Assembly (NCBI GenBank): GCA_022925895.1
Contig: JAKSYS010000467.1
Location: forward strand, 1 to 50,470
Direction of reading: 5' to 3'
Source of the DNA: Fragilaria crotonensis
Taxonomy: Eukaryota > Bacillariophyta > Fragilariophyceae > Fragilariales > Fragilariaceae
DNA: 50,470 nucleotides
Made by a program: the position numbers and the translations under genes
The notes under the pieces: model-generated
What the model was told of the DNA's origin: nothing
Database searches by the model: none
The model's input: only the letters and a program-made list of their open reading frames with translations
Shown: one piece after another, positions 7,405 to 36,542 of the stretch
Position numbering within the stretch: position 1 is the first letter of the stretch
Layout: each line of letters begins with the position of its first letter

Positions 7405-7568
7405 CTCCCGACGTACAAAATCGAGCTGTCTAACGTAGGAATCATTACTGGGGATCCTCTCGACGTACAAAATGTCCCTCCCGACGTACAAAAATCACTC
7501 CCAACGTATCTAATAAAAGTATCCATACCTGAGGATATATAATCTACATAGAAGCTCGCCCCCTTAGG
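7405..7568 (-). repeat. 5' tip of element A: iterons plus terminus
   Basis: Iterons of the form CTCCCGACGTAC start at 7,405, 7,457 (CTCTCGACGTAC), 7,478 and 7,498 (CTCCCAACGTAT), with spacings 52, 21 and 20. Then come TAATAAAAGTA, a weakened hairpin partner (TACCTGAGGATA) and the terminus GCCCCCTTAGG. Directly after it begins coding sequence of element B. The join reads TTAGGGGTAAACATATG, and the uninterrupted sequence in element A is GTGGGGTGAACATATG, so GGGGT is shared at the joint. Confidence 0.8.
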
Positions 7569-8196
7569 GGTAAACATATGTGTGTAGGTGTGGTCGTCTT
7601 TTTCACGGTTTGGTAGGAACGAGATGAGTGCCGCTCTTGCCTCAACGTAATCAAATTGTTTCGTAATGTGAGGTGGCATGGAAAGGGATTCGATTTGACT
7701 CGAAGACACGTATGAACCGCAACACAGCTTAGTGAGATTGACTTGCTGTAGCTTTGTTGGGTCACAGCCACCCTTCTGACAATGCCGAATGGCACTATCC
7801 TTCCTTAATTGAAAAACTTTCCCGCAAGTACATGATACACCCTTGTATGTGACATCATCAACACGATATGGCTCAATTGAGCGATAAGAACGCTTGACTT
7901 CCTCAATTTGTGTTTCGAAGCTTTGCAAAAGGGATTTTGCAGTAGAAATCCCGCTCTCCATTCCATGCTTTTTGAGATGGATTTGAATGCTTCTCAGATT
8001 CAATTGAATCGTTACCGATTTCTTGCATTCGACACCCCAGACCAAATGGCGAGAAGTTGAATGGTCCACAACTGAACGCAAGAGGAGAAACTACTGGAGC
8101 AACACGATCCTGCCATGGGGAAATCTCTGTTGCTGCTTGTCTTTTTTTTGGTGTGGGAGTGATTGGGAACATGGTCGCAGCATCAAAAGCAAACAA
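7569..8196 (-). pseudogene. Element B gene remnant, cut on its telomeric side
   Basis: The frame preserves the family N-terminus: a start MFPITPTPKKR, FNFSPFGLGC, HLKKHGM, the C-T-C-G ... R-H-C cluster, LTKLCCGSYVSS and QFDYVEARAALISFLP. It ends abruptly at YTHMFTP, where element A's tip is attached. Everything that should follow (recombinase-like, helicase and knuckle regions) is absent. A frameshift near 8,030 separates FNFSPFGLGC from HLKKHGM, so the remnant is also internally broken. The lost part is the telomere-facing part of the gene. Confidence 0.8.
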
Positions 8197-8336
8197 ATGT
8201 GATGTTTCATGCAGTACTGTGTGTGTGATGTACCGACGGATTGGAGGTCCGCGCCATATTTTTGTGGCTGATCCGCGCCTGCCATGCTGATGATGTGATG
8301 ACGACGATTATGGAGCCCTACAGCGGAGCTCTGTAC

Positions 8337-8705
8337 CACCCGATGAAGAGGTTGCGTATCTAATGGTACCACCCAATGCTGAAAAAGACACACCCGATGC
8401 AAGTTTTCCCATATTAAATTCCCACCCGATGTATCAAGTAAAAATATATAAAACCAAATTATAAGGTTATCACCGTCCATGCCCGGTAGAACATAGTGCG
8501 TACCCCGATCCGGCGGTTAATCCGCGAGATCTTATTTAGTAGGGAACTCCCCAATTATTTTCGCCGTGCAAAAAATGAAGTCATCGTTGTCTGCGTAGAT
8601 CCCTCTTGGCGAGATATACCAATAGATTTTTTAACCATACGTGTATCAAGTAAAAAAATACATCCCTGAAGTAATTTTATATAGAAATCGGACCGCCCCC
8701 TTAGG
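8337..8705 (-). repeat. 5' tip of element B: iterons plus terminus, with insertion
   Basis: Iterons CACCCGATG / CACCCAATG start at 8,337, 8,370, 8,391 and 8,423, with spacings 33, 21 and 32. The last runs into GTATCAAGTAAAAA at 8,431. That sequence is repeated at 8,643, with about 212 bp between the two copies; after it the tip continues to ACCGCCCCCTTAGG at 8,705. Element C (11,927-12,083) is nearly identical without the insertion. Confidence 0.85.
8445..8642. other. About 212-bp insertion inside tip B
   Basis: The stretch is flanked by the direct repeat GTATCAAGTAAAAA (8,431-8,444 and 8,643-8,656) and is absent from the matching place in element C. It has no obvious terminal inverted repeats. 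The minus strand gives a short peptide-like stretch containing IYADNDDFIF, so it could be a scrap of coding sequence, but it is too short to name. The 14-bp flank may be a target duplication or a product of template switching. Confidence 0.6.
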
Positions 8706-10108: not shown

Positions 10109-10163
10109 GGTGAACGGTGCGGAGGTACGCAACAACTTCCTACTGTTTCTACGGATGTACGGT

Positions 10164-10500: not shown

Positions 10501-10507
10501 CAACATT

Positions 10508-11699: not shown

Positions 11700-12083
11700 G
11701 ATTCCTCATCATTGCGTGTCCTGTTTTTGTGTAGCAGTGATTGGAAACATGGACAACACAATCAAAATAGCAGACGACTGTGATGTTTGTTGTGATATCT
11801 TGTTTGTGTTTGTGATATGCTGACGGGGATTGGGAGGTCTGCGACACATTTTGGTGGCTGATCCGCGCCTGCCATGCTGATGATTTGATGACGACAAATA
11901 GGGACCCCTACAGCGGAGCTCTGTACCACCCGATGAAAAGGTTGCGTATCTAATGGTACCACCCAATGCTGAAAAAGACACACCCGATGCAAGTTTTCCC
12001 ATATTAGTATTCCACCCGATGTATCAAGTAAAAAAATACATCCCCGAAGTAATTTTATATAGAAATCGGACCGCCCCCTTAGG
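11700..12083 (-). mobile_element. Element C: 5' end only
   Basis: Only the start of the gene (MFPITATQK, about 11,730-11,760), the leader and the tip survive. Iterons CACCCGATG / CACCCAATG start at 11,927, 11,960, 11,981 and 12,013 (spacings 33, 21, 32), followed by GTATCAAGTAAAA and the terminus CCCCCTTAGG at 12,083. The leader and tip nearly match element B, so B and C belong to one lineage and share iterons. The rest of the gene, on the telomeric side, is missing. The right end abuts the truncated gene of element D. Confidence 0.8.
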
Positions 12084-13164
12084 CGGAATTTCAAGCATCA
12101 ATTCCTTCAAGAAGTATGCAATTGAAAATCCGTCTTGGTGATTGAATTGCTTGTTGGCAAACAGACCTCGTCGGAAGGAATATGCTAAAAGCTTTTTTGA
12201 GGTCAATTAGCAATGTTGATGGATCGTGTTGCATGGTATATGTGCATCGTTGTGACACATCTTCAATTTCGCCACCTTCAAATGTTTGCAATGCTGCACG
12301 TAGATCACCAGGTACCATTTTGATATTCTTTTGAGCATAGTTCAGAAGCCAGACTTCAGCAAGCTGGTGAAGTTTAACCAGGAATACCTCAGATAATGGA
12401 TTTGGCGGTGAATGGATCAAGTTGAAGTCGGTCTTGATTTTTTCAAAGAATTGTCTGCCACCGCCACAGCCAGAAATAAGAGGGGTGAACATATGAGTAT
12501 ACGTATCATCCTGTCTTTCCCTTTGTGGAAGTAGTGGCAACAAAGCAGTTCTTGCCTCGCCGTAATCAAATTGTTCCGTGATGTGAGGTGCTTTGTTGAA
12601 GAAAGCTGAGACTTGGGCATGGGAAACGTATCGACCGCAACAAAGCTTGATGAGCTCTACGTTCTCTAGTTTGGAAGCATCACAACCAGCCTTCTGGCAA
12701 TGTCGAATTGCACTTCCTTTTCTGGAATGAAAGTGCTGACCGCAAGTGCATGAATACCCTGAGTATGTTTTTTTGTTGTCAATACGGTATGGTTCAATGG
12801 TTCCTGATGCCTTTGCAACATCAAGTTGTGCTTTAAACATGTCATGGACTGAACGAACTAAGGCAATACCACTTCTCATACCGTGCTTTTTTAAATGATC
12901 ACGGATGCACCTTTCATCCATCCGAATTGGAACATTGATTTTGCATTCTTGACAGCCAAGTCCAAATGGAGAAAAGGTGAACAGTTCTTGAATCGGTCCA
13001 AAATCCGGCTCTCTCTCTTGGGGTGTGGAAGTAACCATAGTTACTAGTGTGATGCTTTGTTGTTTGTATGATTGACGATGTTTGAATGTGATGCGAAGTA
13101 CTTCTACAACACCAGTGCGCGCCAATTGAGATAGTACAGGATCTACGGGATCTTGGCGTAGCAC
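12084..13164 (-). pseudogene. Element D gene, N-terminal part only
   Basis: The frame carries FTFSPFGLGCQEC, HLKKHGM, CTCGQHF ... RHCQKAGC, LIKLCCGRYVSHAQV and QFDYGEARTALLPLLPQRE, closely matching element A. It then shifts frame at a T run near 12,197 (T6 here, T5 in A) and continues as SFRRGLFANKQF and DGFSIAYFLKELMLEIPP, where element C's tip is attached. The recombinase-like and helicase regions are missing. The first Met of the open frame overlaps the outermost iteron, so a later Met (about 13,038, MVTSTPQER) is a better start. Confidence 0.8.
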
Positions 13165-13320
13165 CCGACGTACACGTCTCTAAATAAAAAGTGACACACA
13201 ACGTACAAAAATTGACACCCAGCGTACAAATCCTCAGTTAAAAATGACACCCACCGTATCAAGTAATATTATCTATATCTGAAGATATTTTATCTATTTT
13301 TAGGCCCGCCCCCTTAGGGG
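13162..13320 (-). repeat. 5' tip of element D: iterons plus terminus
   Basis: Iterons CACCCGACGTAC, CACACAACGTAC, CACCCAGCGTAC and CACCCACCGTAT start at 13,162, 13,195, 13,216 and 13,248 (spacings 33, 21, 32). ATCAAGTAATATTATC, CTGAAGATATTTTATC and the terminus GCCCCCTTAGG follow. The join to the next gene reads TTAGGGGTTGCC. Confidence 0.85.
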
Positions 13321-14920: not shown

Positions 14921-14998
14921 ATGACACAAAACATCTACCGATGCGAATGACATGAAGCATCTATCAATGCGAATGAAACGAAACATCTACCGATGCGT
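14921..14998 (-). repeat. 26-bp x 3 repeat at the 3' side of element E
   Basis: Units atgacacaaaacatctaccg, atgacatgaagcatctatca and atgaaacgaaacatctaccg start at 14,921, 14,947 and 14,973, each ending in atgcg. The period is exactly 26 bp. They overlap the gene's last codons and may mark the 3' end of the element. No equivalent is evident beside element A's stop codon. Confidence 0.75.
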
Positions 14999-15577
14999 TG
15001 GTGTTTTTAGTGCTGTCTCCCGGGAGGTCAAGAACCGACAGAAAGATTCCCGGGAGGTGTAAATTTGTTCAATATATGATTGGAAGGTTCCCGTTGACTT
15101 AGAGCGTACGAAGTCATGTGAAAGCAACCGGCGCAATCGGCCTTTCACGGGGCAGCTGCTGATCTCGTGCTTTGCGGCACCTTCAGCACCTTTCATAACC
15201 CAGCACTCGCAACAGGCTCTGTTATTGATGTAATCCTTTTTAAAGGGGCAAAGCTTGCGATCATGTGTACCCACACCACACGCGTAGCACATTTTCCATT
15301 GAAAACAAACATGTTTATTTTCAGGCAAAGACTTACTTCCAGTTCCCTTGAGGAGAGGTATCCCCTCGACATGCTGGGTCGCCCTATGCTTTTTCAGGTG
15401 ACGACGAATGTATTTCTCATCAAACTCGAGTGTTGTAGACTTTATACATAGAAGACAGCCTAAGCCAAATGGTGAGAAGGTGAAACATTTTCGAATCGAC
15501 ACTGGATTAGTTGAAGATGGAAGATCTTCAAGAACATATTGCACCTTTCGTTTCTTTGTTAGAGTGATCGGAGGCAT
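14987..15577 (-). CDS. Intact mini-protein of element E: zinc finger fused to zinc knuckles
   Basis: An uninterrupted 196-residue frame. Start MPPITLTKKRK; FTFSPFGLGCLLC followed by RRHLKKH gives the N-terminal C2H2-type finger (about residues 33-64). At HRATQH/VEG the sequence jumps to GIPLLKGTGSK, matching the far C-terminus of element A, with the CCHC knuckle CYACGVGTHDRKLC and the second Cys/His cluster. The deletion removes well over 1,000 residues yet the frame stays open; one extra G beside the junction (GAGGGGATA against GAGGAATA in A) keeps it in phase. If expressed it would retain the presumed DNA-binding ends without the enzyme, so it could repress or be mobilised by full elements. 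That role is inference. Confidence 0.75.
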   Translation of the reverse strand: MPPITLTKKRKVQYVLEDLPSSTNPVSIRKCFTFSPFGLGCLLCIKSTTLEFDEKYIRRHLKKHRATQHVEGIPLLKGTGSKSLPENKHVCFQWKMCYACGVGTHDRKLCPFKKDYINNRACCECWVMKGAEGAAKHEISSCPVKGRLRRLLSHDFVRSKSTGTFQSYIEQIYTSRESFCRFLTSRETALKTPTHR

Positions 15578-15667: not shown

Positions 15668-15823
15668 GCTCCCAATGCACATTTCACTAATTGAACAGGC
15701 AGCTCCGGAGGTTCAAAATTGGCTCCGGAGATCAAATCTCTAAATAAAATTGCTCCGGAGGCCTCAAGTAAAAATATATGTACCTGAGGATTTTTTATCT
15801 ACTTTGAACCCCTTTTCCTTAGG
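15668..15823 (-). repeat. 5' tip of element E: iterons plus terminus
   Basis: Iterons GCTCCCAATGC, GCTCCGGAGG, GCTCCGGAGA and GCTCCGGAGG start at 15,668, 15,702, 15,722 and 15,752 (spacings 34, 20, 30). Then CTCAAGTAAAAATATATGTA, CCTGAGGATT and the terminus CCCCTTTTCCTTAGG end at 15,823. The outermost iteron context (gtagctcccaatgca) is shared with element I. Confidence 0.85.
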
Positions 15824-15835
15824 AGTACTCGCATG

Positions 15836-15851: not shown

Positions 15852-16633
15852 GGCAGGAGGGGTTCTTCAGGTAATCCGCGGCGATATCACGACAACTGTA
15901 TTCGGTTCTCCCATCGTTGATCCCTCTGGTCTCGGTCGATGGTGTGGGTTTACCATTAACGGATCTGGGGGACAAAAAATGTAGCATAATCACTGGGTAC
16001 CGCACCTGCTCGAGCTCGATAACAACAGCACCTCTCGGAAGCACGTTTCATCGGGAATACGAGTATTTCCAAGCGCAAGGATTCCGTCAACCGCAACCCA
16101 GGACTCAATTCGTGGATGACCTATCCTCGACAATCCGGTTACTCAGAGAGGAAAACCATGCACTCGTGGTTATGATGGATGCTAATGCCGTCTTCTCCAA
16201 AGACACCAAGTTGAGCGATATGCTTCGGTCCCACGATCTCGTAGATCTTCACAAATCCCATCCAGCTCCATCTACATACATTGGTTCAGCACACAGAAGA
16301 ATCGATTACATCTTCGGATGTCCTAGAACTGAAGCGGCAATGAGTAGACAGGGTACCCTCTCATACTTTGAGGGTCCACAATCAGATCACAGAGCCTTAT
16401 ATGTAGATTTAAATTTATCCCATCTGTTCGGATCAATGCCAGAGGACCGTCTTCCTAGCCTTCAACGCCGGGCACTCAGGAGCGGAAATCCAGAGCTGAT
16501 CACACTGTACACCAGGACGATCAAACAATATTATGCAGATCATCGGATGCAAGACAGGATCGACGATTTGTTCAAAACATTCCAGCCTGACGCGAACTCA
16601 AGTGCGACGTCTACTTATTGCGTGGGACGATGA
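15852..16633 (+). pseudogene. LINE endonuclease domain (partial)
   Basis: The main frame opens near 15,917 and contains SIITGYRTC, MMDANAVFSKD (catalytic D-x-N), HPAPSTYIG, RRIDYIFGCP and GPQSDHRALYVDL (catalytic S-D-H). These are the late motifs of the apurinic-type endonuclease of LINEs, which nicks the target DNA. The early Asn and Glu motifs are absent because of truncation. A frame change near 16,600 separates this from the linker at 16,533-17,276. Confidence 0.85.
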
Positions 16634-17276
16634 CCAAGGAAGAGCTATGGAACATGCGGAAAGTGTTCTACGAACGCAACCAAAAATGTATAAATGGTCT
16701 CCTCGTTTGCGGAATGCCGGCGTCCTGTTACGTTACTGGAAATTGCGACTCCGCGAACTCACACATGTTGAGGATTATTCTGCGACATTCGCAAGGTGGG
16801 AGCGAAAGATTCAACAATTCGATTCATCGTTTGCACTGCCGCATAGAACCCAAGAGTTGTCAATCGACGAAGTTCGATCCCATCTCAACCAAGCCAACAG
16901 GACCCTTCGGAAGACTCAACGGGAAGCAACGGCTCTACACAATTTAAGCTACGAAGAGTTACTGGATTCATACGAATCTGACATGAATCCCAACACGCAA
17001 GCCGAATCTCAACGTAAAGCCGTAATTGTCAGACGAACAATGGCCGGAGAGAACAGTCGCCAGTTATATGGCAAAATAAGACAGATCGTGAAACCCAGCG
17101 AGGTATCCGCACTGCAACAATTGCTTGTACCAAGACACGTTGACACGACAACAGCCACGGTGCCAGGTCAAGTCCACAATATCCTGAAGTTTACAGCTCC
17201 TGAAAATCTGATATGGGATACAGTGATCACGCGAGAGGACATTGAAGACCATCTCCTTCAATCGAGACGCCTTTAG
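16533..17276 (+). pseudogene. LINE linker between endonuclease and reverse transcriptase
   Basis: This frame of about 247 residues connects the two catalytic domains. It contains a charged helical stretch (HLNQANRTLRKTQREATALH, then NLSYEELLDSYE) typical of the region before the polymerase fingers, and ends TREDIEDHLLQSRR where the RT frame takes over. No catalytic motif lies in it. Frame changes at both ends show that the polyprotein is broken. Confidence 0.75.
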
Positions 17277-18708
17277 AGCTGCAGCAGAATCGCCTTGTGG
17301 GCATGGGTTGATACATGACGCCTTAACGTTCTCAAGTCTATCACCGGAGGCAGAGTCATTGCTTGCAGGCGAAATTCCACCAGAATGGCACGGCGACCGA
17401 TATCTCCTGCGTGAGTTTCTAGCATCCTTTCAGATACCAGGTTCAGTACTAGAGGGAGATCCGATTCCAATGACTATCACAGCGGACGACATCGTTAAAG
17501 GATTTAAATCCTGGAAGGAAACGACTACGACGTCACCGTCTGGACGTCATCTCGGGCATTATAAAGCACTGATACAGGATCCAATACTCTTGGACTGCCT
17601 CCGCAAGTTTCTTAACATCGCAATCTCCCGAGGCATAGCCATACCACGATGGTGCAAGGCGGTGAATGTGATGATCGAAAAAGACAAAGGGAGCCCCAAA
17701 ATCAATCGTCTCCGCATTATCCATTTGTTTGAGGCCGACTACAATCTGTTTCTAAAAATTATGTGGGGGTCTCGTTTAGTTCGCCGGTCAGTACAACTTA
17801 GCTTACTCAACGACGGACAACACGGCTCGGTGCCAGGACGAACAACAATGGACCCAGTTATGTTGAATCAACTCACTACCGATCTATGTCGACTCCTGAA
17901 GGTAAACTACGTCCGGTTTGATAATGATGCCTCAGCATGTTTCGATCGCATCATCGTGGCGTTGGGAATGTTGGCTGCGCGCCGTTGTGGTATGCCCAAC
18001 GAAGCCGTCCGAACACACGCTAAATCCCTGGAGCTGATGCAATATATGGTGAAAACGGTATACGGTGTTTCAAATACGTCATACAAAGGGACCACTCTGG
18101 AACCATTGTTTGGCACTGGGCAGGGTAGCGGCGCATCTCCAGCGGTATGGTTGTCCTTAGTAGTAGTTCTCCTGAACACACTAGAGAAGGTCGTTCCAGA
18201 TCGTATCAGTTTTCGATCGGTTGACGGTACTATCACTCACCAACGCCTCGTGGACGCTTTCGTGGATGACACAGCTATCGGCATCACTGATGATGGTACC
18301 AAGACGTTCCGAGAATTAGTTCAAGCGTTGGAAAATGCTGCTCAGACATGGGAACAACTACTGCATTTTTCAGGAGGTGCCTTGAACTTAAAGAAATGTT
18401 CGTGGTATGCACTCTACTGGGATTGGCGACAAGGACGACCACAGCTCAGAGAACTTTCAGATGAAGACCCAACAATCAAACTTTATCAGGGCTCGTCGGA
18501 TACAGATTCCACCGTTCAAATCGACCGGCAAGGCATACACACATCAGCTCGGATCCTTGGAGTTCACCAAACTCCGACAGGCGACTTCTCGCACCATCTC
18601 CACGTACTGAAATCCAAAGCGGACCAATATGCTGGCTATATTCGGTCGCCCCGATTATCGCCATCGGACATCCGTGTTTTCACCGAACGATATACGCTCC
18701 GGCTATGA
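17242..18708 (+). pseudogene. LINE reverse transcriptase domain
   Basis: A frame of 488 residues. Motifs in order: TSPSGRHLGHYK, the KINRLRIIHLFEADYN region, GSVPGRTTMDP, motif A RFDNDASACFDRI (catalytic Asp), GTGQGSGASPAVWLSL (template-grip box), and motif C AFVDDTAIGI, where F-V-D-D takes the place of the usual Y-x-D-D. A conserved FSGGALNLKKCSWY follows. All catalytic aspartates are present, so this domain alone looks well preserved. It would copy element RNA at the nicked target. The frame ends at 18,708 and the thumb/connection region continues in other frames. Confidence 0.9.
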
Positions 18709-21690: not shown

Positions 21691-21692
21691 AA

Positions 21693-21901: not shown

Positions 21902-22494
21902 ATGAAGAGATGCGACTTGAGCATGTGACACGTAACGACCACAACAGAGCTTGATTAAATCAACTTTCTGCAATTTAGCGGGGTCACAACCCAATCTTTG
22001 GCAGTGGCGGTGCGCATTATCCTTTCTCAGAAAACTTGACCACAAAGGCATGAAAATCCATTGTTAGTACTTTGGTCAATTCGATAGGGCTCGATGGCTC
22101 CTGTAGCCTGTAATTCTTCCACTTGCATTCTGAGAGTATCAAAAAGGGAAGGGATTGTGGCATACCTCCTTGCCAGTCCATGTATTTTAAGATGGTCACG
22201 AATGCATCTTTCATTGAGGCGGATAGACACAATTTTTGGGCAGAGTCGACATCCAAGTCCAAAGGGAGAGAAGGAAAAAATTCCTTGGCCTGTAACAGAA
22301 GTGTGGCGGTAAAGTGCAGGTGCTACCATTTCACATCTAGCATTCGGCAAATCTTCAGTGGTGACCATGTCAACAATATGATATGATAACAGCCGTGATG
22401 AAGGCACAATTGCCGAGTGCATATCTCCAAAAATGCACCACAGAGTCAAAAACAGGGATACCAGGTTATACATACGGGCGGATTGTTGGGCCAT
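21902..22494 (-). pseudogene. Element F gene, N-terminal part only
   Basis: Two frames carry FSFSPFGLGCRLC, HLKIHGLARR, GFSCLCGQVF, then (after a frameshift near 22,030) LRKDNAHRHCQRLGC, LIKLCCGRYVSHAQV. The sequence stops at VASLHL where tip J is attached. Everything further toward the C-terminus is missing. The upstream residues include a hydrophobic stretch (LVSLFLTLWCIFG) in frame, but the native start is uncertain; copies E and I start nearer the FSPFG box. Confidence 0.8.
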
Positions 22495-22529: not shown

Positions 22530-22674
22530 CTCCGGACGTGATAATTCCTAAGTAAAAAATCCCTCCGGACGTGAAAAATCCTCCTCCGGACGTATAATCA
22601 CCACTCCGGACGTAGCAAGTAAAAGCATCTATACTTGAGGATTTTTAATCCAGTTTGAACCCCTTTTCCTTAGG
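22530..22674 (-). repeat. 5' tip of element F: iterons plus terminus
   Basis: Iterons CTCCGGACGTG / CTCCGGACGTA start at 22,530, 22,563, 22,584 and 22,604 (spacings 33, 21, 20). The long spacer holds CCTAAGTAAAAAA. Then come GCAAGTAAAAGC, TATACTTGAGGATT and the terminus CCCCTTTTCCTTAGG at 22,674. Confidence 0.9.
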
Positions 22675-23103: not shown

Positions 23104-23130
23104 AACCCCTAACCCCTAACCCCTAACCCC
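23104..23130. repeat. Internal telomere tract capping element G
   Basis: Three perfect AACCCCT units plus AACCCC (27 bp) lie in the C-rich orientation expected at a left chromosome end. The next base starts element G coding sequence in mid-domain. This is the structure left when a broken end gains telomere repeats. Confidence 0.85.
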
Positions 23131-23513
23131 TTTACATGCTCACCGATGCATCTCTCTTCCATCAGAATCAAAGGGTTGATTTTACACTCCCGACAACAAA
23201 GGCCGAATGGAGAGAATGTGAACAAATCTTGAATTGGTAATAATGGTTCAACTGCCTCCTTTTTCTTGTTGTTGCAGCAGGAAGCATTGCAGTTAAGATG
23301 AAGTGCTATTAAGCACAACTCTGAGACAATGTGTGATGGATGTTCAAAATGCATTGAAGTTGGCAGTGATAAACTTGGTTGCAGAATGGAATACTCACTA
23401 AGCTTGCGGTGAAGTTCATTTTCAAACAAAATTAACATACCAAGGAAGTTGTAGAAAGCTCCGTAACACCCAGTTTGAAAGTTGTTAAATAATAAGGTAC
23501 CACCGGACCTCAA
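23131..23513 (-). pseudogene. Element G gene, N-terminal part only
   Basis: The frame contains LFTFSPFGLCCREC and MEERCIGEHVK, matching the family finger (compare MDERCIRDHLKKHGM in D). It breaks off inside the finger at the telomere tract. Upstream residues include a Cys/Asn-rich stretch (CNASCCNNKKK) of uncertain status. Nothing of the recombinase-like or helicase domains remains. Confidence 0.75.
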
Positions 23514-23621
23514 AAATCTACACCAACCGTAAAATCCTTAAGTAAAAATCCACCCACCGTATCAAGTAAATATATATATACTTGAGGATATTTTATCTAG
23601 TTTGAACCCCTTTTCCTTAGG
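23467..23621 (-). repeat. 5' tip of element G: iterons plus terminus
   Basis: Iterons CACCCAGTTTG, CACCGGACCT, CACCAACCGTA and CACCCACCGTA start at 23,467, 23,501, 23,521 and 23,551 (spacings 34, 20, 30). The long spacer holds CCTTAAGTAAAAA. The hairpin TCAAGTA ... TACTTGA is perfect, and the terminus CCCCTTTTCCTTAGG ends at 23,621. It is followed by the upstream region of the PstS-like gene. Confidence 0.85.
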
Positions 23622-25270: not shown

Positions 25271-25361
25271 CATGCAGTGCATGGCCAGGAGGTAACCGGC
25301 GCCGGAGGCGCCGATGAACCTAGGCATCGGGCCAGGAGAGGAGGTGTGGGTGGGTGGGATT
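25271..25361. other. Spacer between repeats b and a with palindromes
   Basis: Contains CATGCAGTGCATG and GGCGCCGGAGGCGCC, two short palindromes, in a G-rich stretch. It is not repeated elsewhere in the element. It may be a recombination or replication feature, or a small insertion. Confidence 0.5.
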
Positions 25362-25508
25362 AACTAGAGTAGTGTCTTTGTTGATTCGAGTTCGTCCGGA
25401 TTGTGAGCAATTCGCATCTTGTGTTGTGTCCGGGTGTTCGTCTGTCTGTGTCTCGTGTTCGTCTGTCTGACGGCGACTGCTCTCCCTTTCCCGAACTTCG
25501 GACATGCC
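25362..25508 (-). repeat. Split direct repeat a, internal copy
   Basis: Begins ttaactagagtagtgtcttt and ends ttcggacatgccacg. It is matched by 31,776-31,927. The junction ccacg|aaataaattcc with repeat b is the presumed circle junction of the element. Confidence 0.9.
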
Positions 25509-25806
25509 ACGAAATAAATTCCGAGTCTTGTCCGCATTTCTCTAAGTCCGTTTAGTCGGATGAGTCGGCCGCCTAGTGGTTTCGTCGTACCGCTGTCTCG
25601 CGTACTGTCGCGTCGATTCGTGTGTTGCTGTGTGTGGTTTTCTGGATTCTCCTTCATGTTCACGAGGCTAGTGGAACTAAATAGATGGCATCGGAATCTG
25701 GTCCTAATAGTTTTGTCTCTCTCCTGGTTCGTCTCGCGGGTCGGTCCCGTGATATTCATCTAGCGGGGGTCCGTCGCGTCGTTGTGAGTCGACCTGGTTT
25801 CCGCCA
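25509..25806 (-). repeat. Split direct repeat b, inner copy
   Basis: Runs from aaataaattccgagtc to ggtttccgcc and continues directly into the recombinase reading frame, whose C-terminal residues it encodes. Confidence 0.9.
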
Positions 25807-27088
25807 TTTTCCGGTTGTCGTTCGTCCGCAGGATCATGGGCGACTGTGAAGAAAGTTTGTCGATTCGTCATGCGCGTGGCGACCCCGATCGTGGTGTCTG
25901 GCACTTGGATGCGTAGGTATCTCATGAACGTCCTGCTCCGCCAACGGCCCACCATCTGTATCGTTTCGCTTGGCACACCTGCCAAGTGCATTGCCATGGC
26001 CGCGCCCGACCTAATCGAGTGCGTACCGATTCGATCGGCCTGGAGTCCCAGCCTCTCCTCTCCCGATAGTATTGTCGCGGCCCTCAGCTGTTCGAGGATC
26101 GTTTTCGAAGAGACGTGTTCGAGCTCGTTCGATGTTGTCGATACGAAAGCGTTTATCTTCGGGTTCGTCCGACCAAGTCGTTCGTAGCCTCTAATTCTGT
26201 GAATCAATTCCGCAAGTGTCCGTACCGGACATATGTCTGCCTGACCGGGGTTGTTGTTCCTGTGCTGCGTCACCTTCGCTCCTTTGTCTCCGTTCTTTGT
26301 TGTCGATAGGTGATCGTTACGGCGTCTGCATTTCGGGTTTGTTCGTAGGAGAAAGTCGTCAGCGTTTCGTCCTGTTTCCTGAATCGAACGTCGTCTACTC
26401 TGACTACCGATGTTCGTCTGCCGCCTCCCACGTCGGAGTATTCGCAAGACCTCATGGCGAAGAAAAAGGCCGTGACCACCAGTTGTCCGACTGCCACGTC
26501 CAACTCGTTCCTGGACCAGGATCTCACCTTCCTGATCACTTCAAGAGGAATGGCTTGTTGTTGTGCGACTCCCGGGTCGTCGTCCGCGTACTTCTTCAAT
26601 TGTAAAGCCAGAAGGGGGGTCGAGGCGTCCGGCGGAGTCGTGGATTGGGCTCTCAAGTTTGTTAAGCCTGAAGGTCTGAGCCACACCGTCGAGGGTGGCA
26701 CGAATGGTACCGGACATGGCTCCATTGCCATCTGTCGCAGGCTGTCTGGAGCGAAGCCGTCCGTCCCGAAGGGCGGCAGCGAAACACGCGAAGATTTCCG
26801 TCCTTTCGTTTCGTCCGAACCGGCGGAGAAAAGGGTCGAGGTCGACTCCGACTCGCTCGAGGAATCGTGCGTAGCAGTTCCAGCTGCTGCTGCGCTTGGC
26901 GCGGGTTGAGTCGGCAAGAGCTGCGTTTTGGGCAGCAGACGCAGCCAGTCTCCAATCTGCGAAATGAGGGCTGGCTGCAAGGGGATGATCCTGAAGTTCT
27001 GTGGGACAAAGGGTGAGCCATGTTTCCTGATGAGCGAGGTGACCTCGTCGTCGTCGAGCGCGAAGTCTCGCGATAAAATGTCCGCCAC
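25704..27088 (-). pseudogene. Tyrosine recombinase of the Ngaro-type element
   Basis: The core-binding region lies at 26,541-27,000 (ADSTRAKRSSSWNCYARFLE). The catalytic domain is split between two other frames: FFFAMRSCEYSDVGG carries the first Arg, and THSIRSGAAMAMHLAG (H-x-x-R), then VGRWRSRTFMRYLRIQ (Trp and the nucleophile Tyr) carries the rest. All catalytic residues are present across frames. It would integrate the circular cDNA. Frame changes near 26,550 and 26,300-26,440 break the gene. The coding end overlaps repeat b. Confidence 0.85.
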
Positions 27089-27728
27089 CTTGTTCTCTCG
27101 CCCCGGGAACCATTGAGTGTAGTGGTCGATCTCGTGCGTCAGACAGAAATCAGCGAAACTCCTCGCGATGGTGAGGTGAAGCGGACAGTTGTCGTCGAAG
27201 CTGGACTTTGCCAGCCACCCTGCGGCCGAGGTGCTATCCCCTTGGCTTAGCAGGACGTCCGAGACTGGCGACCACTTTTTTTCCTTCGCGGAATTCGACT
27301 ACCATTCCCACGAAGGCTGCTAGAAACTCCAACGTATTAAGTGTCGCTCGTCCCGCTAGATCTTCGGGCAGTTGGTATCGCCAAGCAATCCCGCTTTGGA
27401 GACCATATCCTCCTATCCCTTGCGGGCAAGCGTCCACCCGAACGATTCGCGTCGGCCACCTGCAGACCAATCTGTTGATGGAGATCCCTTGCGCCGCTCT
27501 TCGCAGGAAGCTCCTCCAAAGGCTCAGGTCATCGCGTTGGGGATTCGTCAGTCTCGTCTTTCCACTTCGTTTCGATCTCTCGCATGCCTTGTAGAGTCGC
27601 CCCATGAAATGCCTGGAGTACGGGACGACGTATGCGGCGTGGCTGAGTCGTCCGAGGGTCTTCTCAGATCGTTCGTCGTTACGTGCGCATGCCTGTTCGC
27701 TAGGATCTTGTCGATCACTTTCGTCCAT
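26996..27728 (-). pseudogene. RNase H domain of the Ngaro-type element
   Basis: RIVRVDACPQGIGGYG carries the first Asp and LNTLEFLAAFVGMVVE the Glu. Further on, in a second frame, SQGDSTSAAGWLAKSSF carries the next Asp and WFPGRENKVADILSRD closes the domain just before the recombinase frames. This order is typical of DIRS-order elements. A frame change near 27,234 interrupts it. Confidence 0.8.
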
Positions 27729-27896
27729 GCGTGGTATTTGTCCTCAGGCAGAGCGACCGTGAAGCGGCGTGTGTCTACCAGCCATCCCAAGATCATCTTC
27801 CGCTCAGATGGTTTCGCCTCGGCCAGGAACTTCGGGATGGCAAGGATGTCGTCTCTGGGAAAGGATTCGTTTCCTCTGCGTTGTGGGGTCTTCCCA

Positions 27897-28643
27897 CTAT
27901 GTGCAATGCAAGGGGAATCGCTGCCGAGCTCTTTTCTGCGTCTCTTGGGTTGAAAGCCCCAAAATGTCGTCCAGGTAACAGTCGAATCTGGGTAGATCGT
28001 CGTCGTTTGCGATCGGGTAGTTCACAGCGAAGAAATCGGCTTCTCCGAATTCGCTCGACCCGTCGATCATTCCATCGTCGTTATCTACGGCTTCGTCAGA
28101 ATCAAGCAAGTGTTGATGCGGCGAGTGGAATACCTTCGGGTCCCAGTCTGATCTCCTGACGAGGTCATTCGCAAGGTCCGTGATTACTTCGGACACGTCG
28201 CTCCACTGGGACGGGTTTGGTGCTCCTCCGAAAGTCATCCTGAGTGCCACGAGGAGCAGGTCGTCAATGCTAGTGCAAGACTTCAGGGCGGTTCGTGCCT
28301 TTAAGTGTATTCGTCTGTAGGCGGATTTGCAGTCCACCTTTGTGAGGAGGATGGGTTCTTTCGGCCACAATTGTCTGAGGTACGAGATGTGGTACATCAG
28401 TCGACTGAAAGCCCTGCCAAATCGTGCGGTCGTCAGTTGTGACGTGTCCACTCTGTCGTTTACGCTTCGTCCTGGGATCCCGCTGGGGTTGAATGACTGG
28501 TCGTGTGTGAGCCTTAGCTTCTCGATGGTCTGTCCCTTCTCGTCGATCGATGTCTGTGCCACCATGCCCAAAGGCGCCACCTCGCAGCCTTCTAATTCCA
28601 GAGCGGCCTCCCTCGGTAGGGGCAGTTGCCAGCCCCTTTCCAC
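27897..28643 (-). pseudogene. Reverse transcriptase of the Ngaro-type element
   Basis: The frame of about 248 residues contains KLRLTHDQSFNPSGIPGRSVN, ILLTKVDCKSAYRRIHL (motif A with catalytic Asp), VALRMTFGGAPNPSQWSDVSE and FDCYLDDILGLS (motif C, Y-x-D-D). This is a DIRS/Ngaro-type polymerase; D-x-K-S-A-Y-R and F-G-G-A-P-x-P-S-x-W are characteristic. The start at 28,643 is arbitrary: the gag-like frame overlaps upstream, and RNase H follows after a frame change near 27,900. Confidence 0.9.
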
Positions 28644-31600
28644 TTCTTCTTTAGCATTGATATCAACTTCGCTTCGTGGCCTCGGGCCGATTTGTGATTG
28701 CCACGGGCGAGGTTGTCGCGGACGTCGGCGAGGCGGTCGGCGTCGGAAATCTCGCGGAGGGAAAATCCGCGCCGTCTGAAATGCGCTCTTGGAAGCGCGA
28801 CCAGAGCGGGTGTGCGGAGAGGAGCGGCGCCAGGAGCGCGGCGGATCGAAATTCGGATCCGGGTGTCACCGCGCTGAACGGTTGGGCGTCCACGGCTGCC
28901 CTGAGGTCCAGCGCGTAGCGCCGGAGGACTGCCAGGTTGTGAGCGGCCGCCTCGTGAGTCCATTCGAAGCGGAATTCGGTCGGGTGCGTCGTCGGCTGGG
29001 GGCGTCGAGGATGCTGGCCAGAGCATCGGCGAGTCGAGGTTCGGGAAGGCGCGGGAAAGGCGAGTCGACATTCGGAAGCGGTATCGTCGGAAGTGGAACC
29101 AGGGCGAGTGACTTACCGTTGGTCCTAGGACCCCAGAGGGTGTCCAGGAGTCGTGACGTGAGACGAACGTCCTCGTTCGCAGTGCCGGGGCGGTCAGCTC
29201 CGCGGCGGACGGTCGTGGGCGGTCGGGCGGGGCGAGGCGGTGTCGCGGCCGCGAGCGATGTCTCATGCGTGGCGATCGTTGCCGTCGGGCGTGGTTGTGC
29301 AGCGGGATTGCTATGGACGGACCCGCTATGGGTCCATCGGTCGGCTGGCGCGAGTCGCGGAAAGGCGGTGCGTCCCCTGTCGTTCGTCGATTGTGAAATT
29401 CGCGATGGGCTGCCTCGTGATCAAAGGACCACCGGGAAGGCTGAGCGACGAAAAAGTTGTAGTGTAAGCAGATGCAGAGGGTCCTAATTTCGTTTTCTTG
29501 CTGGGCGGCGTCGAGTCGGACGAGGGTCATGCGCATGCGCGCCCTGCATTGTTCGATCCATGCCCTAACGCTCGCGGTTTGTTCGGTCGTAAGGGCGACG
29601 TGCGAAGCGCTCAGGAAGCAGCTCCGGACACACTTGCCGTTCAAGTGCCAGCGGCAGCACATGTTCGGGAGCGGCCCGCTCCGCACGTGATCGAGGAAGA
29701 CCTGCCAGACGTCGTTGGCGTCCTTCGTGAACAGGTCCTGCTGCGGGTTCGTGACAGCGTCTGCTGGTTGTCCCTTTCGTCCAGATCGTGCGCCGCCTCC
29801 TCCTGATGCGCTGGGGCTTCCGCCTTCGCGGCAGCGCTGCCCCGGACCCCATCCTGTCTTTCAAGAAGTCGCAGGCGGAAGACGAAGGCTCCGTCCTCCA
29901 GTTGCTGACGCGTCGAACGGAAGTCTAGCAGATTCAGGTTGATATCGTCCTCGTGTTCCACTCCTGCGCACAACACCAAGTATTGTTGCGTGCGTTTCTC
30001 GATGAACCAACCGAGGCGACAGGCGGCCGAGTTGTCTTCGTGAGCTAGCTGTCGTAACGTCGCTAAGGTCGATCCGACTGCTCGCGTCAGGAAACGACAC
30101 CACTCGTCCAACATATGCGTCAACGGGGACCGCGGGCCGAAGAGGAGCTCGGCCACCCCGCCATGTTCTCGAGTAGTCGCGCGAGCTCGTGAAAATCACG
30201 CGGGATAGTGAAATTGAGCTTCGTCATGCTCTTGATGTCTTTGTCCGAGAATCCAGTTGTCGTGTCTGTCGTCTTAAGTTGCATTTGAACAAGGGTGCTT
30301 GCGTGGTCGAGAGCATCCCTGCCCGTCGCGTTCGATCGTGCGAGCGTCTGGGGCCCGCAGCAAAAAAGGCTGAAGGCTCCTGGTCTGTCCGAAGCGTCGG
30401 CTAGGAAGGATGCGGTCCGAATGGCTGCGCAGAAACCCATTGGGATGAATGCATCCCTCCCTTTCGTGTTGCGCAAGAAATGGTGTATGTGGTTTTGGAC
30501 GTACGCCACGTTGCTGAGCGCTAGGATGTCTGCGAAGGTCTGGACGGGGCGAGTTGGGGTCCTCCCCAGGCGTCCTTCTCCGAAACGAACAGGATCATCC
30601 GCTTTGTCGACGGGGGAACGAGTCGAATCCTGTCTTCGGGATTTGAGGAGATGACGCGACTGCGCTAGCGACCTGTCTTTCGAGGAGGCTCGACAAGTTT
30701 CTGATGGCGTCGTTCTCTCGTCCTGGCGTTTCTGACTGATCGTCCGATTGATGAGGCTTTTAGCCTTCACGGCCAGGTACTTCATGTGTAGGACTTTCGC
30801 CCAGTCGTCCGCTCGCCTAGAGTAAGCTGACGAAGCCGCCACTCCCCACTTTGTTGGACCGTGAGTGGTTCTGGTGCTCGCTGCAACGCAGAGAACCCAT
30901 CGAGGTACGTAGGACGCTGCTTCGGCCAACCTCGACGCCCGGTCGGGTCCGGGTCCTCACTCGCCCTCTGTTTGATGGTCCTGACTATCATCAGGGCCAA
31001 TTCCTCAGGGTCGGTGACGTATGATTCCATGATGGCTGCTGCGATGAACGCCGGAACTGGTACTGTCGGTTTCATGGTGAAACCGACGACCGTGACGTCT
31101 TCTGTGTCGTCCGCGTCCGCGTCGTTCGTCTTGTCTTGGTCGTTAGTCTCGTTAGTATGTTTGCTCGACTTGGATCTGCCTCTTGGGGCACTGCCTTTCT
31201 TGGGGCGTCCTCTCGTCGCTGCCACAGGAGGTGGCCCGCGCCGGCGCCGATGCCTGTCCGGCGCTCGCTGACGCCTGACACCGAAGATCTCGTCGTCACC
31301 AATTCTTCAATCGCTCTTCGTACGTCGGACGTAGAATTCCACGTGAGCATTTTGGACCAATCGTAAGGCGTTCCAACGTGGCTTCTGACGATCTGTTTCG
31401 TGTCGACCGCCATGGCGGCTGCGAATCCACCGCCGCCGAGAAGTGCCCATAGGGCGTTCGTTCCGTCGTTTAGTCCGTCGTCGGCGTCGTGGTGAAAGTG
31501 GTGGAACAGACGGATCGTCCCGTGCGTGTTTACCATCAGGTGTGCGATGTCCGGCGAACACAGGTGTACAAACCCTGTAGACTCCGTATTAATCGAATTC

Positions 31601-31710
31601 GATTTCGTGTGTAATCTGTTGAGCTTCGGGACCACTTCCCACTGGTCAAGGGCACGGAAGACGTCTTCCCACGTAGACGTCATCGTCATAGGGGACGACA
31701 TGTCGGCCAT
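28592..31710 (-). pseudogene. Gag-like region of the Ngaro-type element
   Basis: Several overlapping minus-strand frames run from a Met at 31,710 (MADMSSPMTMTSTWEDVFRA) through 31,225, 30,929 and 30,156 to 28,592. The most informative part is MCCRWHLNGKCVRSCFLSASH near 29,600, a Cys/His finger (C-x-W-H-x-x-G-x-C-x3-C-x5-H) typical of nucleic-acid-binding gag proteins in these elements. The N-terminal part contains DIAHLMVNTHGTIRLFHHF. Frame changes occur at each overlap. The region is GC-rich and continues into the polymerase frame without a clear stop. Confidence 0.65.
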
Positions 31711-33743: not shown

Positions 33744-33998
33744 ATGACGAGCCATCGGCAACGCCGGTCTCTCGTTGCAGCAGGACTCCGTGATCCGGAT
33801 AATCGTGACTTTTCGCCTGATACCCCAGAATGGAACGAAAGCATCTTGTTTGAAGATATTGTTCCTCTTTCTCGTACGGAAGTTCGGAGGTATCATCTGA
33901 CTCAGTTTAAGTCCATCACCAATCCAACGGCTTGGAATCGATACTTGCATCTCGGGCTCTATGCCTACGATGACGGTTTAGAATTCGACTGTATCTGA
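33744..33998 (+). CDS. Small hypothetical protein next to element H
   Basis: An 84-residue frame starting MTSHRQRRSLVAAG, with a basic N-terminus, WNESILFEDIVPLSRTEVRR, and an aromatic-rich end (NPTAWNRYLHLGLYAYDDG). The stop lies within 3 bp of the preserved part of tip H. I recognise no domain. The composition is protein-like and the ATG is well placed, but with no relative it stays hypothetical; it could be the cut N-terminus of a larger protein. Confidence 0.4.
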   Translation: MTSHRQRRSLVAAGLRDPDNRDFSPDTPEWNESILFEDIVPLSRTEVRRYHLTQFKSITNPTAWNRYLHLGLYAYDDGLEFDCI

Positions 33999-33999
33999 A

Positions 34000-34072
34000 T
34001 CCACCCACCGTATCAAGTAAATATATAAATACTTGAGGATATTTTATCTAGTTTGAACCCCTTTTCCTTAGG
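34000..34072 (-). repeat. Element H: last 73 bp of a 5' tip
   Basis: One iteron (CACCCACCGTAT), the perfect hairpin TCAAGTA ... TACTTGA and the terminus CCCCTTTTCCTTAGG remain. The other iterons and the gene are missing on the telomeric side. It matches the end of tip G nearly base for base. The terminus abuts the truncated gene of element I. Confidence 0.85.
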
Positions 34073-36301
34073 ATGTTGGATATCGGAGTTGCATTGCCGA
34101 CCGCAGATTTAGCCAAGGATAAAATATTCTGACATCTCGAGAATCCATATGATGTATCTCCTAAAGCAAAGTGATAGGCATTGAAGTGGGCCTCTTCTGA
34201 ACCGACTCGTTCACTGGAATAGGTAGATGCATGAGTAAATGTTGAATGACCCATTTTGATGTCCGATGGTGCTTGAGCACAAGTACTTGTGTTGCTCACC
34301 ACCAGTAACAAAATTTGAGACGCAAGCCCAGAACTGACGAACCTGTGTCATGTCTGGTAATGACAACAAGTTGAAGAGATCCTGAATCACATGAGATGGT
34401 CCAAAATCTGATCGATTGACTCGCCTTGGAAAGATTAATGATTGAGAGTCTTCATCTGAGAAAAACTTCCATTGTTTTGGATCAGGGATCGAAACAACAA
34501 AAAATATCGGGAGATAATTGGTGGAAGCTTGCGTTCAACTTGTTTACACTTTTGTCGTGAAGCATTGGTGAAACCTTTCAATGATATAAGGGAATAGTAG
34601 ATAGTATCATTGCTGTAAACGCAGTGAAACATTGGTGGTTCAACCAATTCGGTCATTCGTGCCGAGCCACCACCAAATCCATGAAAAGACATCTCGAGTT
34701 GTGCAGTTAAATAAAATCCAGATGCTCGAGAGGCAAGCACAAACCTTGCTTCCAAACTGAGTGAATATCGACAAGAGCAAGGTCCCCTGTGTCCTTGTCT
34801 ACCCTTACCTTGATATTTGTTGCAAGGTCAACAATGGGTTCCCACCATAGCCCGTCTGCCAATTCAGTAATTGCATCCCGCATCAAGAACACTGTCCGAG
34901 GTACGATTCGAGACCATTCATCAAATAAGAAAGAATATTGATCAACCATAATGTTGCCAACCGTATCAAGTGTTGTCTTTCTCCTTTAGGCATGCGACGA
35001 CGCATTTCACGAATTTGACGAACCATCGGTGACAAATGTGAATCACTGGTGATTCACGTACTGATTTGACAAGTGCAGGACCAAAATTGTAAATGACTGG
35101 TTGGAAAATGAACAGATAACGGAGCAAACGGCTGCCTTCAGAACTGATGAGATCTTTGAGAAGACAGAGGACACTGTGTCACAAGAGATCATGTTGATTT
35201 CTGAACCATTGGTTGAGACTCGGAAAGCAAACATTAAACAGAACTCTGCAACGAAGGGAAGAGATGCCACCGATTGAGGGACTTCAAGCAACAAGTCCTT
35301 CAAAAGTAGGGCACTGCAAAGGCATTGCTTGTGTCAAAGCCTCTCGATGCAAAGAGACCTCGTCTGTAAGAAAAGGATAAAGCTTTTTCAACTCTGGAAG
35401 CAAACCCGTGGATCGTGTTGCATTGTGTAGGTACAACGATGTGATATCTCTTCTATTTCACCACCTTCAAATGTTTGAAGTCCAGCGCGAGATTGCCAGG
35501 AACCATCAATATATTTTTTTGCACGAACTTAAGGAGCCAATCCTCAGCATGCTTGTGGATTTGAACCAACAAGAACTCAGTTGATGAGCACGGTGATGAA
35601 TGGATCGAAGAAAAGTCGGATTTTATCTTCTGGACAAATTGTTTGCCACCACCGCATCCATGAATAAGGGGTGTAAACATATGTGTGTACATATGATCCT
35701 GTTTTTCCCGTTTTGGAAGAATAGGAAAAAGCACAGCTCTTGCCTCACAATAATCAAATTGCTGTTTTGAATTGTGTGGTGATTCGTTGAAAAATGAAGT
35801 GACTTTAGCATGAGTCACATACCTGCCGCAGCAAAGCTTGATGAGATCAACTTTCTGTAGTTTTGAAGAATCACAACCCACAGTCTTGCAGTGTCGATTT
35901 GCATTTCCAATCTTTACAAAGGATTGACCACACACACAAGAAAATCCAGCATAGGTCTTGCTGTCGCTCCGATACGGATCGATACTTCCCAAAGCCTTTG
36001 CATGAAGTAGTTCCTTTTTATATTCTTCAAGGAGAGAATGGACTGTAAAAACCCTACTGTCCATACCATGTTTTTTCAGGTGAAGTTGAATGGATCTCTC
36101 GTCTGACTGAATTGAAGTGGACCGAATGCATTGTCGACAGCCTAGACCAAACGGAGAGAATGTGAAAACTTCTTGGATAGTCATGATGGGGTGGACAACA
36201 GGAGAAGGATTCTTGAAAGCAAAGCCATTTGCTTCAATCAATGCTGGCAAATGTATCCCATCCGATGCGCATCGCTTCCTGGATGTTGCAATCGGCAGCA
36301 T
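34073..36301 (-). pseudogene. Element I gene, N-terminal two-thirds, frameshifted
   Basis: Start MLPIATSRKRC at 36,301, then EVFTFSPFGLGCRQC, HLKKHGMDSR, GFSCVCGQSF ... RHCKTVGC, LIKLCCGRYVTHAKV and QFDYCEARAVLFPILPKRE. After several frame changes come MISCDTVSSVFSKISSVLK, VDQYSFLFDEWSRIVPRTV, EMSFHGFGGGSARMTEL, LPPIISRYFLLFRSLIQ, MTQVRQFWACVSNFVTGG and KMGHSTFTHASTYSSERVGSEEAHFNAYH. Each matches element A in order, including the recombinase-like Arg and GH...Y. The gene stops just before the helicase domain, where tip H is attached. It shows that the recombinase-like segment is conserved within the family. Confidence 0.85.
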
Positions 36302-36385
36302 GGTATGATTTTATTGTGATTGCCAAGGGATGAATGGTATGGAGTTTGAATTCATGGATACCAGAGTCTACAGAAGCAATCCGTA

Positions 36386-36542
36386 GCTCCCAATGCATAT
36401 TTCCTTAAGTTATCAGTGGCTCTTGATGCAGAAAAACAGCTCCCGATGCAAATTCACCTATGTAAAATGGCTCCTGATGTATCAAGTAAAAATATATATA
36501 CTTGAGGATATTTCATCTAGTTTGAATCCCGTCCCCTTAGGG
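36386..36542 (-). repeat. 5' tip of element I: iterons plus terminus
   Basis: Iterons GCTCCCAATGCA, GCTCTTGATGCA, GCTCCCGATGCA and GCTCCTGATGTA start at 36,386, 36,419, 36,439 and 36,470 (spacings 33, 20, 31). The hairpin TCAAGTA ... TACTTGA is perfect; the terminus GTCCCCTTAGG ends at about 36,542. Confidence 0.9.

Follow-up and report, generated by a model that had tools for sequence, protein, structure and literature searches.

The Y' elements of Saccharomyces cerevisiae are described as subtelomeric repeats of 5-7 kb that code for a helicase and stand in tandem at chromosome ends, where neighbouring copies are often parted by telomeric repeats (145 of 234 junctions; PMC13177704). The fungal telomere-linked helicases (TLH) are portrayed as helicase genes beside telomeres with truncated copies among them (PMC12857005), and geminiviruses and other Rep replicons are reported to carry short private iterons upstream of the gene for a DNA-binding protein, iterons that this cognate protein reads (PMC12548392). 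The present analysis concerns a family of helicase-coding elements in the diatom Fragilaria crotonensis (62.1 Mb in 881 contigs), of which the elements A to I lie on contig JAKSYS010000467.1 (C411). This subtelomeric contig was analysed over its whole length of 50,470 nucleotides and is called the window below. Each element tip carries a row of short sites (iterons) with a sequence of its own, and the reading held with good confidence is that the two-finger helicase of an element would bind its own private iterons and, less certainly, load the tip for joining or copying onto an eroding chromosome end. This own-tip reading is considered the most likely one because the covariation of finger and iteron, the published recognition code of zinc fingers, the trees, a natural chimera and the one-way stacks of elements all point to it.

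From the terminus inward, an element consists of the iterons followed by a minus-strand gene. Its protein, some 1,300 residues long, has a pair of N-terminal zinc fingers and a DEAD-type helicase behind them; there are copies other than A in which fingers and helicase form a single open frame of 1,254-1,324 codons. The tip is taken as the 5' end of the element because the gene, fingers first and then helicase, starts inside the terminus and runs away from it. An element's own finger 1 begins some 290-440 bases away from its tip. Among the few copies in which one was sought, no conserved 3' terminus was found. Pfam searches of copies A and C84 matched only DEAD and Helicase_C, above or near the cut-off, together with a weak C2HC match, and the PDB gave two sequence matches, both weak, to RecG across the helicase and to a finger of CLAMP. 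A HUH endonuclease domain had no Pfam match at E up to 10, in a search whose filters drop most weak matches and so leave room for a strongly diverged one. Some of the 44 listed relatives are labelled RecQ by their source, and no relatives outside the genome appeared in the viral contigs scanned with protein alignment and with the tip pattern.

Like Y', the diatom elements code for a helicase, lie in one orientation and are subtelomeric, closeness to an end being known only for the contigs with telomere arrays. They differ from Y' in that their junctions were listed without a telomere tract after the terminal CCTTAGG, the tips joining truncated bodies directly, and in having a finger-iteron code. 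With the fungal TLH they share the nature of telomere-near helicase genes with truncated copies, but they possess private terminal iterons and a defined 5' terminus that set them apart from TLH as described in PMC12857005, the comparison being one of descriptions. The pairing of private iterons with a cognate protein, here as judged by covariation alone, is also found in iteron/Rep systems. Unlike these and unlike Helitrons, the diatom element has no HUH Rep domain found by Pfam, its putative reader consists of two fingers fused to a DEAD helicase, and it is linear and chromosomal.

Telomeric retrotransposons carry a reverse transcriptase, and HeT-A attaches by its 3' side. The diatom elements resemble those of the HeT-A type, FoTeR and MoTeR in being stacked at chromosome ends with truncated copies; they differ in that no reverse transcriptase was found (Pfam, copies A and C84) and in that it is the 5' end of the gene-bearing strand that forms their precise inner end. 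In Ac/hAT and En/Spm, the transposase has a zinc finger that reads family-specific subterminal repeats near a defined end, whereas the diatom element shows no transposase domain (Pfam) and no second terminus was seen, one end only being precise. No description of such an element in diatoms was found in the titles and abstracts reached by a literature search, which left subscription journals mostly outside. In the portions of text available, 'helicase' was not found in the Phaeodactylum telomere-to-telomere paper (PMC9266582), nor 'telomer' or 'transpos' in the F. crotonensis assembly paper (PMC9476933). As far as this literature extends, the parts are known from Y', TLH and viral iteron systems and the combination is not.

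Under the own-tip reading, both fingers of the protein would bind each iteron of their own element, finger 2 at bases 0-3 (GAG or GTG on the bottom strand) and finger 1 at bases 8-10. Several helicases would load side by side on the row of four sites of their own tip and not on the tips of foreign lineages. With less certainty, the loaded helicase might open or present the tip, and the element might be joined or copied tip first onto a broken end; the outward 3' side would then erode until the next element is added.

Iterons at the element tips

The sample comprises at least 91 tips on at least 28 contigs, grouped in 21 clusters. The initial annotation had placed four iterons in each of the tips A to G and I, and all eight sets are present (start positions in Table 1). 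An unbiased search for four similar 10-mers arrived at identical sites and spacings in 11 of the 21 clusters, and in each of these none of 60 dinucleotide shuffles scored as high (floor p 0.016). A further six clusters also outscored their shuffles, but through shifted or other words; two of them gave a partial set and the rest are composite or truncated tips, and for this reason the shuffle p alone is not specific. Four clusters were not significant in this search, namely G (p 0.25), H, the terminus at 8705 and one truncated tip. The best consensus for the site is N0-C-W-C-N-N-R-W-N8-G-Y-A. The gap of 52 bases in A contains, by eye, a degenerate fifth site.

The words had been described as shared inside an element and different between elements, and this holds: sites of one element differ on average at 1.94 of 11 bases, against 3.90 when same-number sites are dealt among 16 lineages (standard deviation 0.125, minimum of 5000 shuffles 3.42). 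The likeness resides in bases 0, 2, 4, 5, 7 and 8 (z -5.8, -9.3, -6.9, -7.2, -8.4 and -12.2); bases 1 and 3 are invariant, and 60 of the 64 sites have G at base 9. No likeness is seen in the flanks at bases -5 to -2 and 13 to 17 (z -1.7 to +0.5), with a slight likeness at bases -1, 11 and 12 (z -3.1, -2.8 and -2.6). Gene conversion of whole repeats as the source of the likeness is ruled out by these flanks, because such copying would have homogenised them too.

On the evidence of the sequence, likeness confined to particular bases is the signature of base-specific reading by a protein. This protein could belong to the host, for example a telomere or silencing factor, with the lineages drifting between its variants, and in the contigs with known ends the sites do lie in subtelomeres, where host factors act. 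A host reader is nevertheless extremely improbable, since one private word per element would be unexpected and the words track residues of the element's own protein.

The spacings between iterons are exactly those that had been listed, and the claim of a constant architecture extends to 20 lineages. Gap 1 measures 32-34 bases in 18 of these and 52-53 in two, gap 2 measures 20-21 in 19 and 12 in one, and gap 3 measures 30-32 in 15 and 20-21 in five. There is no wide scatter; the gaps fall into three narrow classes near 2, 3 and 5 helical turns, the 12-base gap being the sole exception. The last site sits 70-71 bases from the element end in all 20 lineages. A phase coherence of R = 0.81 at a period of 10.5 is compatible with the further suggestion of an arrangement of all sites along one helical face, but the best period in the scan was 11.2 (R 0.84) and the suggestion is not proven; the phase test is weak because the lineages share descent and their spacings are partly inherited.

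In the window CCTTAGG occurs nine times, always on the plus strand, against 2.7 expected. Eight of these occurrences close a full 75-base terminus and the ninth, in B, closes an interrupted one. The terminus of B is broken near 8461 by about 180 foreign bases and has its CCTTAGG at 8699-8705. The insert covers 8462-8641, and about 32 tip bases (8430-8461) recur behind it (8642-8673), like a long target duplication. Many tips also have an inverted repeat, TCAAGTA...TACTTGA with arms of about 7 bases, between the last iteron and the end (for example 36478-36510); it is decayed in lineages A and C.

Pairing of finger residues with iteron bases

Covariation between iterons and the FTFSPFGLGC finger (finger 1) had been put forward as a check on the initial annotation, and it was found: helix position 6 (residue 28, before the first zinc-binding His) pairs with base 8 in 16 of 16 lineages when the majority base is taken. 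Asp or Glu stands with C in 6 lineages, Arg with G in 5, Ile with T in 3 and Asn with T in 2. At the level of single sites 61 of 64 fit, the odd ones lying in T, G and E. The rule was set from eleven lineages and held in three of the five read later (J, 13 and 13b), and K1 and K2 have Asn with T, a residue outside the prior rule. The later lineages were drawn from 20 further stretches; the iterons of 13 were known beforehand and its finger was not.

A second finger, of the C2HC type, had not been anticipated and emerged from a scan of 608 pairs, with helix positions 2 and 3 covarying with the site. Position 3 (residue 88) pairs with base 2 in 15 lineages, 13 from the scan and two added by hand, as Asn with T in 11 and Ser with A in 4. 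At position 2, Asp stands with A or C at base 0 in 36 of 36 sites. In a test of 48 pairs at canonical contacts, the base 8, base 2 and base 0 pairs were each reached in none of 5000 permutations family-wise, and the next-best pair (finger 2 position -1 with base 0) in 265 of 5000.

Among individual copies, base 8 fits 50 of 52 pairs and base 2 fits 38 of 39, as read from 109 tips of which 16 were dropped with the last site off the fixed offset and others had no readable finger in range; the search pattern for finger 2 admitted Asn or Ser only, and many of the copies are near-duplicates. The three pairs that do not fit come from stubs 170, 119 and 364 bases long (C269:57353, C508:9899 and C754:13121), in which the finger belongs to the neighbouring element because the stub's own body has been lost. 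The covariation in both fingers argues for the earlier proposal that each element's own protein reads its own sites.

The pairs in finger 2 can be compared with known specificities. On the bottom strand, bases 3-1 read GAG with helices of the RKDNALR type and GTG with those of the RKDSAIR type; Arg occurs at helix position 6 (with one Trp and one unread) and Arg or Lys at -1, opposite the invariant C3 and C1. Among selected fingers, RSDNLRA is listed for (a/c)AG and RSANLVR for GAG, and Asp at position 2 is described as favouring G or T 3' of the triplet, with little influence of Ala (PMC3919609). RSDALTR and RKDALNR are listed for GTG and RSDSLLG for TTG (PMC2634973). The G or T that goes with Asp beside the triplet would give C or A at base 0 of the top strand, which matches the Asp lineages. 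As predicted from its helix, finger 2 thus conforms to the C2H2 specificities given in these sources. In finger 1, Arg with G fits the code at the 5' base of the top-strand triplet 8-10, a position at which an acidic residue is associated with C.

The AlphaFold2 model of the protein of window element D shows both fingers as beta-beta-alpha, with a predicted local distance difference test (pLDDT) of at least 88 per ten-residue block over residues 61-190. Finger 1 has strands at 62-65 and 68-71 and a helix at 84-93, finger 2 has strands at 134-138 and 144-146 and a helix at 149-159, and the variable residues are placed at helix positions 6 (finger 1) and 3 (finger 2). With the modelled fold, the Cys/His ligands and the bases that track the contact positions, both are classed as C2H2-type fingers.

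A correlation could exist by descent without any contact if the tip and finger 1 recombine as one block. Such a block does move as one, since chimeras exist in lineages 5 and I: lineage 5 (L080, C578:13795) has a body near identical to that of I (L064) from behind finger 1, finger 1 and the tip being different, and by its sequence it is a natural cassette swap of tip and finger 1. If linkage were the only cause, base 8 should not be scattered as it is on the tip and finger-1 trees, both of them weakly supported, with 7 changes required by the tip-DNA tree once the iterons are left out (shuffled mean 7.9) and 8 by the finger-1 tree without the helix columns. Furthermore, base 2 (A/T) and base 8 (C/T/G) are found in each of their six possible combinations, and the residues match wherever both fingers are readable; the strongest pairs lie on canonical contact positions, and finger 2 follows the published code. 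Linkage without contact is therefore regarded as very unlikely.

The phylogeny of the protein body was likewise rejected as the cause of the covariation, base 8 being scattered on the protein trees. Outside both fingers (13 lineages), base 8 and the class of residue 28 need 7 changes each, and base 2 and residue 88 need 4 each; on a tree of all columns after finger 1 (14 lineages), the base 8 label needs 7 changes against a shuffled mean of 7.0. In four sister pairs (T-D, 9-F1b, E-J and 5-I) the changes at bases 2 and 8 match those at residues 88 and 28 exactly. All four differ between 9 and F1b and between E and J. Between T and D, base 2 and residue 88 differ, as do base 0 and residue 87, and base 8 and residue 28 are the same, while between 5 and I base 8 and residue 28 differ and base 2 and residue 88 are the same.

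The main rival of the own-tip reading is autoregulation, in which the iterons are operators of the element's own gene and keep its expression low and private without any role in mobility. It would give identical covariation, and the sites do lie between the terminus and the coding region, with finger 1 at the distance from the tip given above. An operator does not need a distance from last site to element end that is the same within one base in 20 of 20 lineages, nor does autoregulation call for a DNA-binding module fused to a helicase. Autoregulation without mobility is therefore judged unlikely, if by no means negligible, and an operator role may hold alongside the loading of the tip.

The approximately 16 natural lineages within one genome amount to a matched set of fingers and targets, in which single residues and bases have changed jointly several times. 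Such a set bears on the evolution of natural C2H2-type specificity and on how selfish elements keep their machinery from rivals, two questions that can be approached with small purified domains.

Junctions and orientation at the chromosome ends

Terminal telomere arrays (CCCTAA/CCCCTAA) are present on C23, C490, C592 and C754, and all four contigs bear tips with genes that read toward the array. In the window the telomere probably lies off the left end, because the satellites there resemble, by eye, those flanking the C754 array. Tip orientation is uniform in 17 of 17 contigs with at least two tips (80 tips, E < 0.001), two weak matches in the opposite orientation (E 0.15 and 0.42) falling below the cut, and 20 of the 28 contigs have their tips in the half toward which the genes read. 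The contigs come from a nanopore assembly and some may be mutual duplicates or haplotypes; C411 and C121, for instance, have several junctions in common. Contig C427 has two internal telomere arrays (70399-70746 and 97113-97146) that face each other across 26 kb, and the tip search found no tip on it; a misjoin or fused ends are possible.

The tips end in CTTAGG in 84 of 91 cases and abut 75 distinct sequences. The interior of an element matched from another contig is entered at 26 of the 75 junctions, 33 to 3,607 bases from the tip of that element and always in the same orientation (26/26). One-way stacks on truncated bodies would be expected from repeated loss of the 3' side and renewed addition with the 5' tip inward. 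Among the junctions of the window (Table 1), that at 13318 is a probable tip-to-element junction.

One-way arrays might instead arise where subtelomeres recombine unequally and copy one another by a break-induced route, a mode of growth that has been proposed for yeast Y'. Some junctions are indeed common to two contigs, such as C411:34072, which is also found at C121:57786, so there is copying between ends, or else these contigs are haplotypes. The precise CTTAGG end against so many distinct partners speaks against recombination as the builder, as does the wide scatter of breaks where the partner is an independently matched element. Homologous copying is disfavoured because a precise end against unrelated partners is not its product, and this origin of the arrays is considered doubtful, although it retains a real share of the probability.

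A number of observations weigh against the own-tip reading. The iterons stand where operators would lie. The fit at base 0 is loose outside the Asp lineages, with Gly and G together in 13 of 16 sites and Ala and G in 3 of 8. When all 608 pairs were scanned, 19 of 300 permutations had a maximum at least as extreme as the z of the base 8 pair and 1 of 300 one at least as extreme as that of the base 2 pair, and all permutations treat the lineages as exchangeable. Finger 1 matches the published code at position 6 only, positions -1 and 3 being unaccounted for. The two fingers would read one site from opposite directions, which is unusual and which the linker of about 45 residues may allow. Branch support in the trees is modest: well-supported branches are few, and of the four sister pairs two fall below the strict mark. 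No transposase, nuclease, polymerase or reverse transcriptase was recognised in the element protein by Pfam. In 8 of 28 contigs tips lie outside the half toward which the genes read, and 49 of the 75 junctions have no independent element match.

If the own-tip reading is right, the elements point to helicase-based building of chromosome ends in diatoms. They could even represent a new class of mobile DNA, a proposal that is made tentatively and somewhat short of an even chance: builders of chromosome ends without reverse transcriptase or known transposase, with an own-tip code of self-identity and tip-first addition, whose many mutually blind lineages would share one genome and together build the subtelomeres. 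In this proposal the identity of a lineage would change by point changes in matched pairs of residue and base, or by a swap of the cassette of tip and finger.

Two minor features of the junctions were also seen. At 43 of the 75 junctions CCTTAGG is followed by G, so CCTTAGGG, a single inward telomere-like unit, may be the actual terminus, or the G may reflect a microhomology of one base. In addition, 14-base stubs with the sequence GCCTTCTCCTTAGG, the tip ends of lineage 9, are found one or two at a time immediately behind tips that belong to other lineages. An interpretation of GCCTTCTCCTTAGG as genome-wide excision footprints was rejected: among 12 copies listed, 3 are lineage 9 tip ends and 7 stand behind other tips, a tally that leaves out two copies, C588:16358 and 16708.

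Features and neighbours in the window

The elements of the window are in different states of preservation (Table 1). In copy A finger 1 is altered across its helix, apparently by a frameshift. The gene of E (14987-15577) has lost its middle, an internal deletion that fuses finger 1 in frame to the C-terminal knuckle part, and E is likely a non-autonomous copy. Element G is a remnant of 947 bases from which the protein body, including finger 2, has been lost.

Table 1. Coordinates of iterons, fingers, termini and satellites in the window, with stub locations on other contigs
Feature	Position	Strand	Remarks
Satellites near left end	119..1182	unassigned	by eye like those beside the C754 telomere array (L047)
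A, DEAD/Helicase_C part	3184..6048	-	one open reading frame with the fingers in other copies
A, N-terminal two-finger part	6180..7367	-	finger 2 at 6876-6941
A iterons	7405/7457/7478/7498 (7405..7508)	+	CTCCCGACGTA type; base 2 T, base 8 C; spacing 52/21/20
A terminus	7494..7568	+	ends CCTTAGG; meets truncated B body at 7568/7569, independently matched
B finger 2	7764..7832	-	helix RKDSAIR, residue 3 = Ser
B iterons	8337/8370/8391/8423 (8337..8433)	+	CACCCGATG type; spacing 33/21/32
C iterons	11927/11960/11981/12013 (11927..12023)	+	CACCCGATG type; base 2 A, base 8 T; spacing 33/21/32
C terminus	12009..12083	+	meets truncated D body at 12083/12084, independently matched
D finger 2	12682..12750	-	C2HC; helix RKGSAIR, residue 3 = Ser
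D finger 1	12886..12981	-	C-x2-C-x15-H-x3-H; helix residue 6 = Asp
D iterons	13162/13195/13216/13248 (13162..13258)	+	CACCC..CGTA; base 2 A, base 8 C; spacing 33/21/32
D terminus	13244..13318	+	meets sequence behind the gene of E; common with C490 to within ~190 bases of the junction
E finger 1	15389..15484	-	helix residue 6 = Arg
E iterons	15669/15703/15723/15753 (15669..15763)	+	CTCCGGAGG type; base 2 T, base 8 G (3/4); spacing 34/20/30
F finger 1	22183..22278	-	helix residue 6 = Asp; finger 2 core 22001-22018
F iterons	22530/22563/22584/22604 (22530..22614)	+	CTCCGGACGT; base 2 T, base 8 C; spacing 33/21/20
F terminus	22600..22674	+	directly followed by the G remnant with its own finger 1 and tip, same orientation
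G finger 1	23127..23222	-	helix residue 6 = Glu
G iterons	23467/23501/23521/23551 (23467..23561)	+	CACC..CCGTA; first two degenerate; spacing 34/20/30
H terminus	33998..34072	+	meets truncated I body at 34072/34073, independently matched
H, one iteron left	34002..34012	+	beside an otherwise intact 75-base terminus
I finger 2	35873..35938	-	helix KIGNANR, residue 3 = Asn
I finger 1	36071..36166	-	helix residue 6 = Leu here, Ile in several other copies
I iterons	36387/36420/36440/36471 (36387..36481)	+	CTCCCGATGCA type; base 2 T, base 8 T; spacing 33/20/31
GCCTTCTCCTTAGG stubs	L071 (C588:12140-12167), C783:10392-10419, C754:12758, C588:8562, C389:17895		

Other mobile sequences share the window with these elements. 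Between E and F lies an element resembling a long interspersed nuclear element (15917-21151, plus strand), with a match to RVT_1 at 17242-18708. The stretch 24968-31710 on the minus strand has a match to a tyrosine recombinase at 25704-26447 with reverse-transcriptase-like frames behind it and duplicated stretches of 215 and 153 bases, and we take it to be perhaps a retroelement of the DIRS/Ngaro type. A plus-strand frame occurs in two copies (1749-3035 and 39507-40469) with 94% identity over 300 bases, and the stretch around the copy at 1749-3035 is also found, at 95%, behind the lineage 9 element on contig C578.

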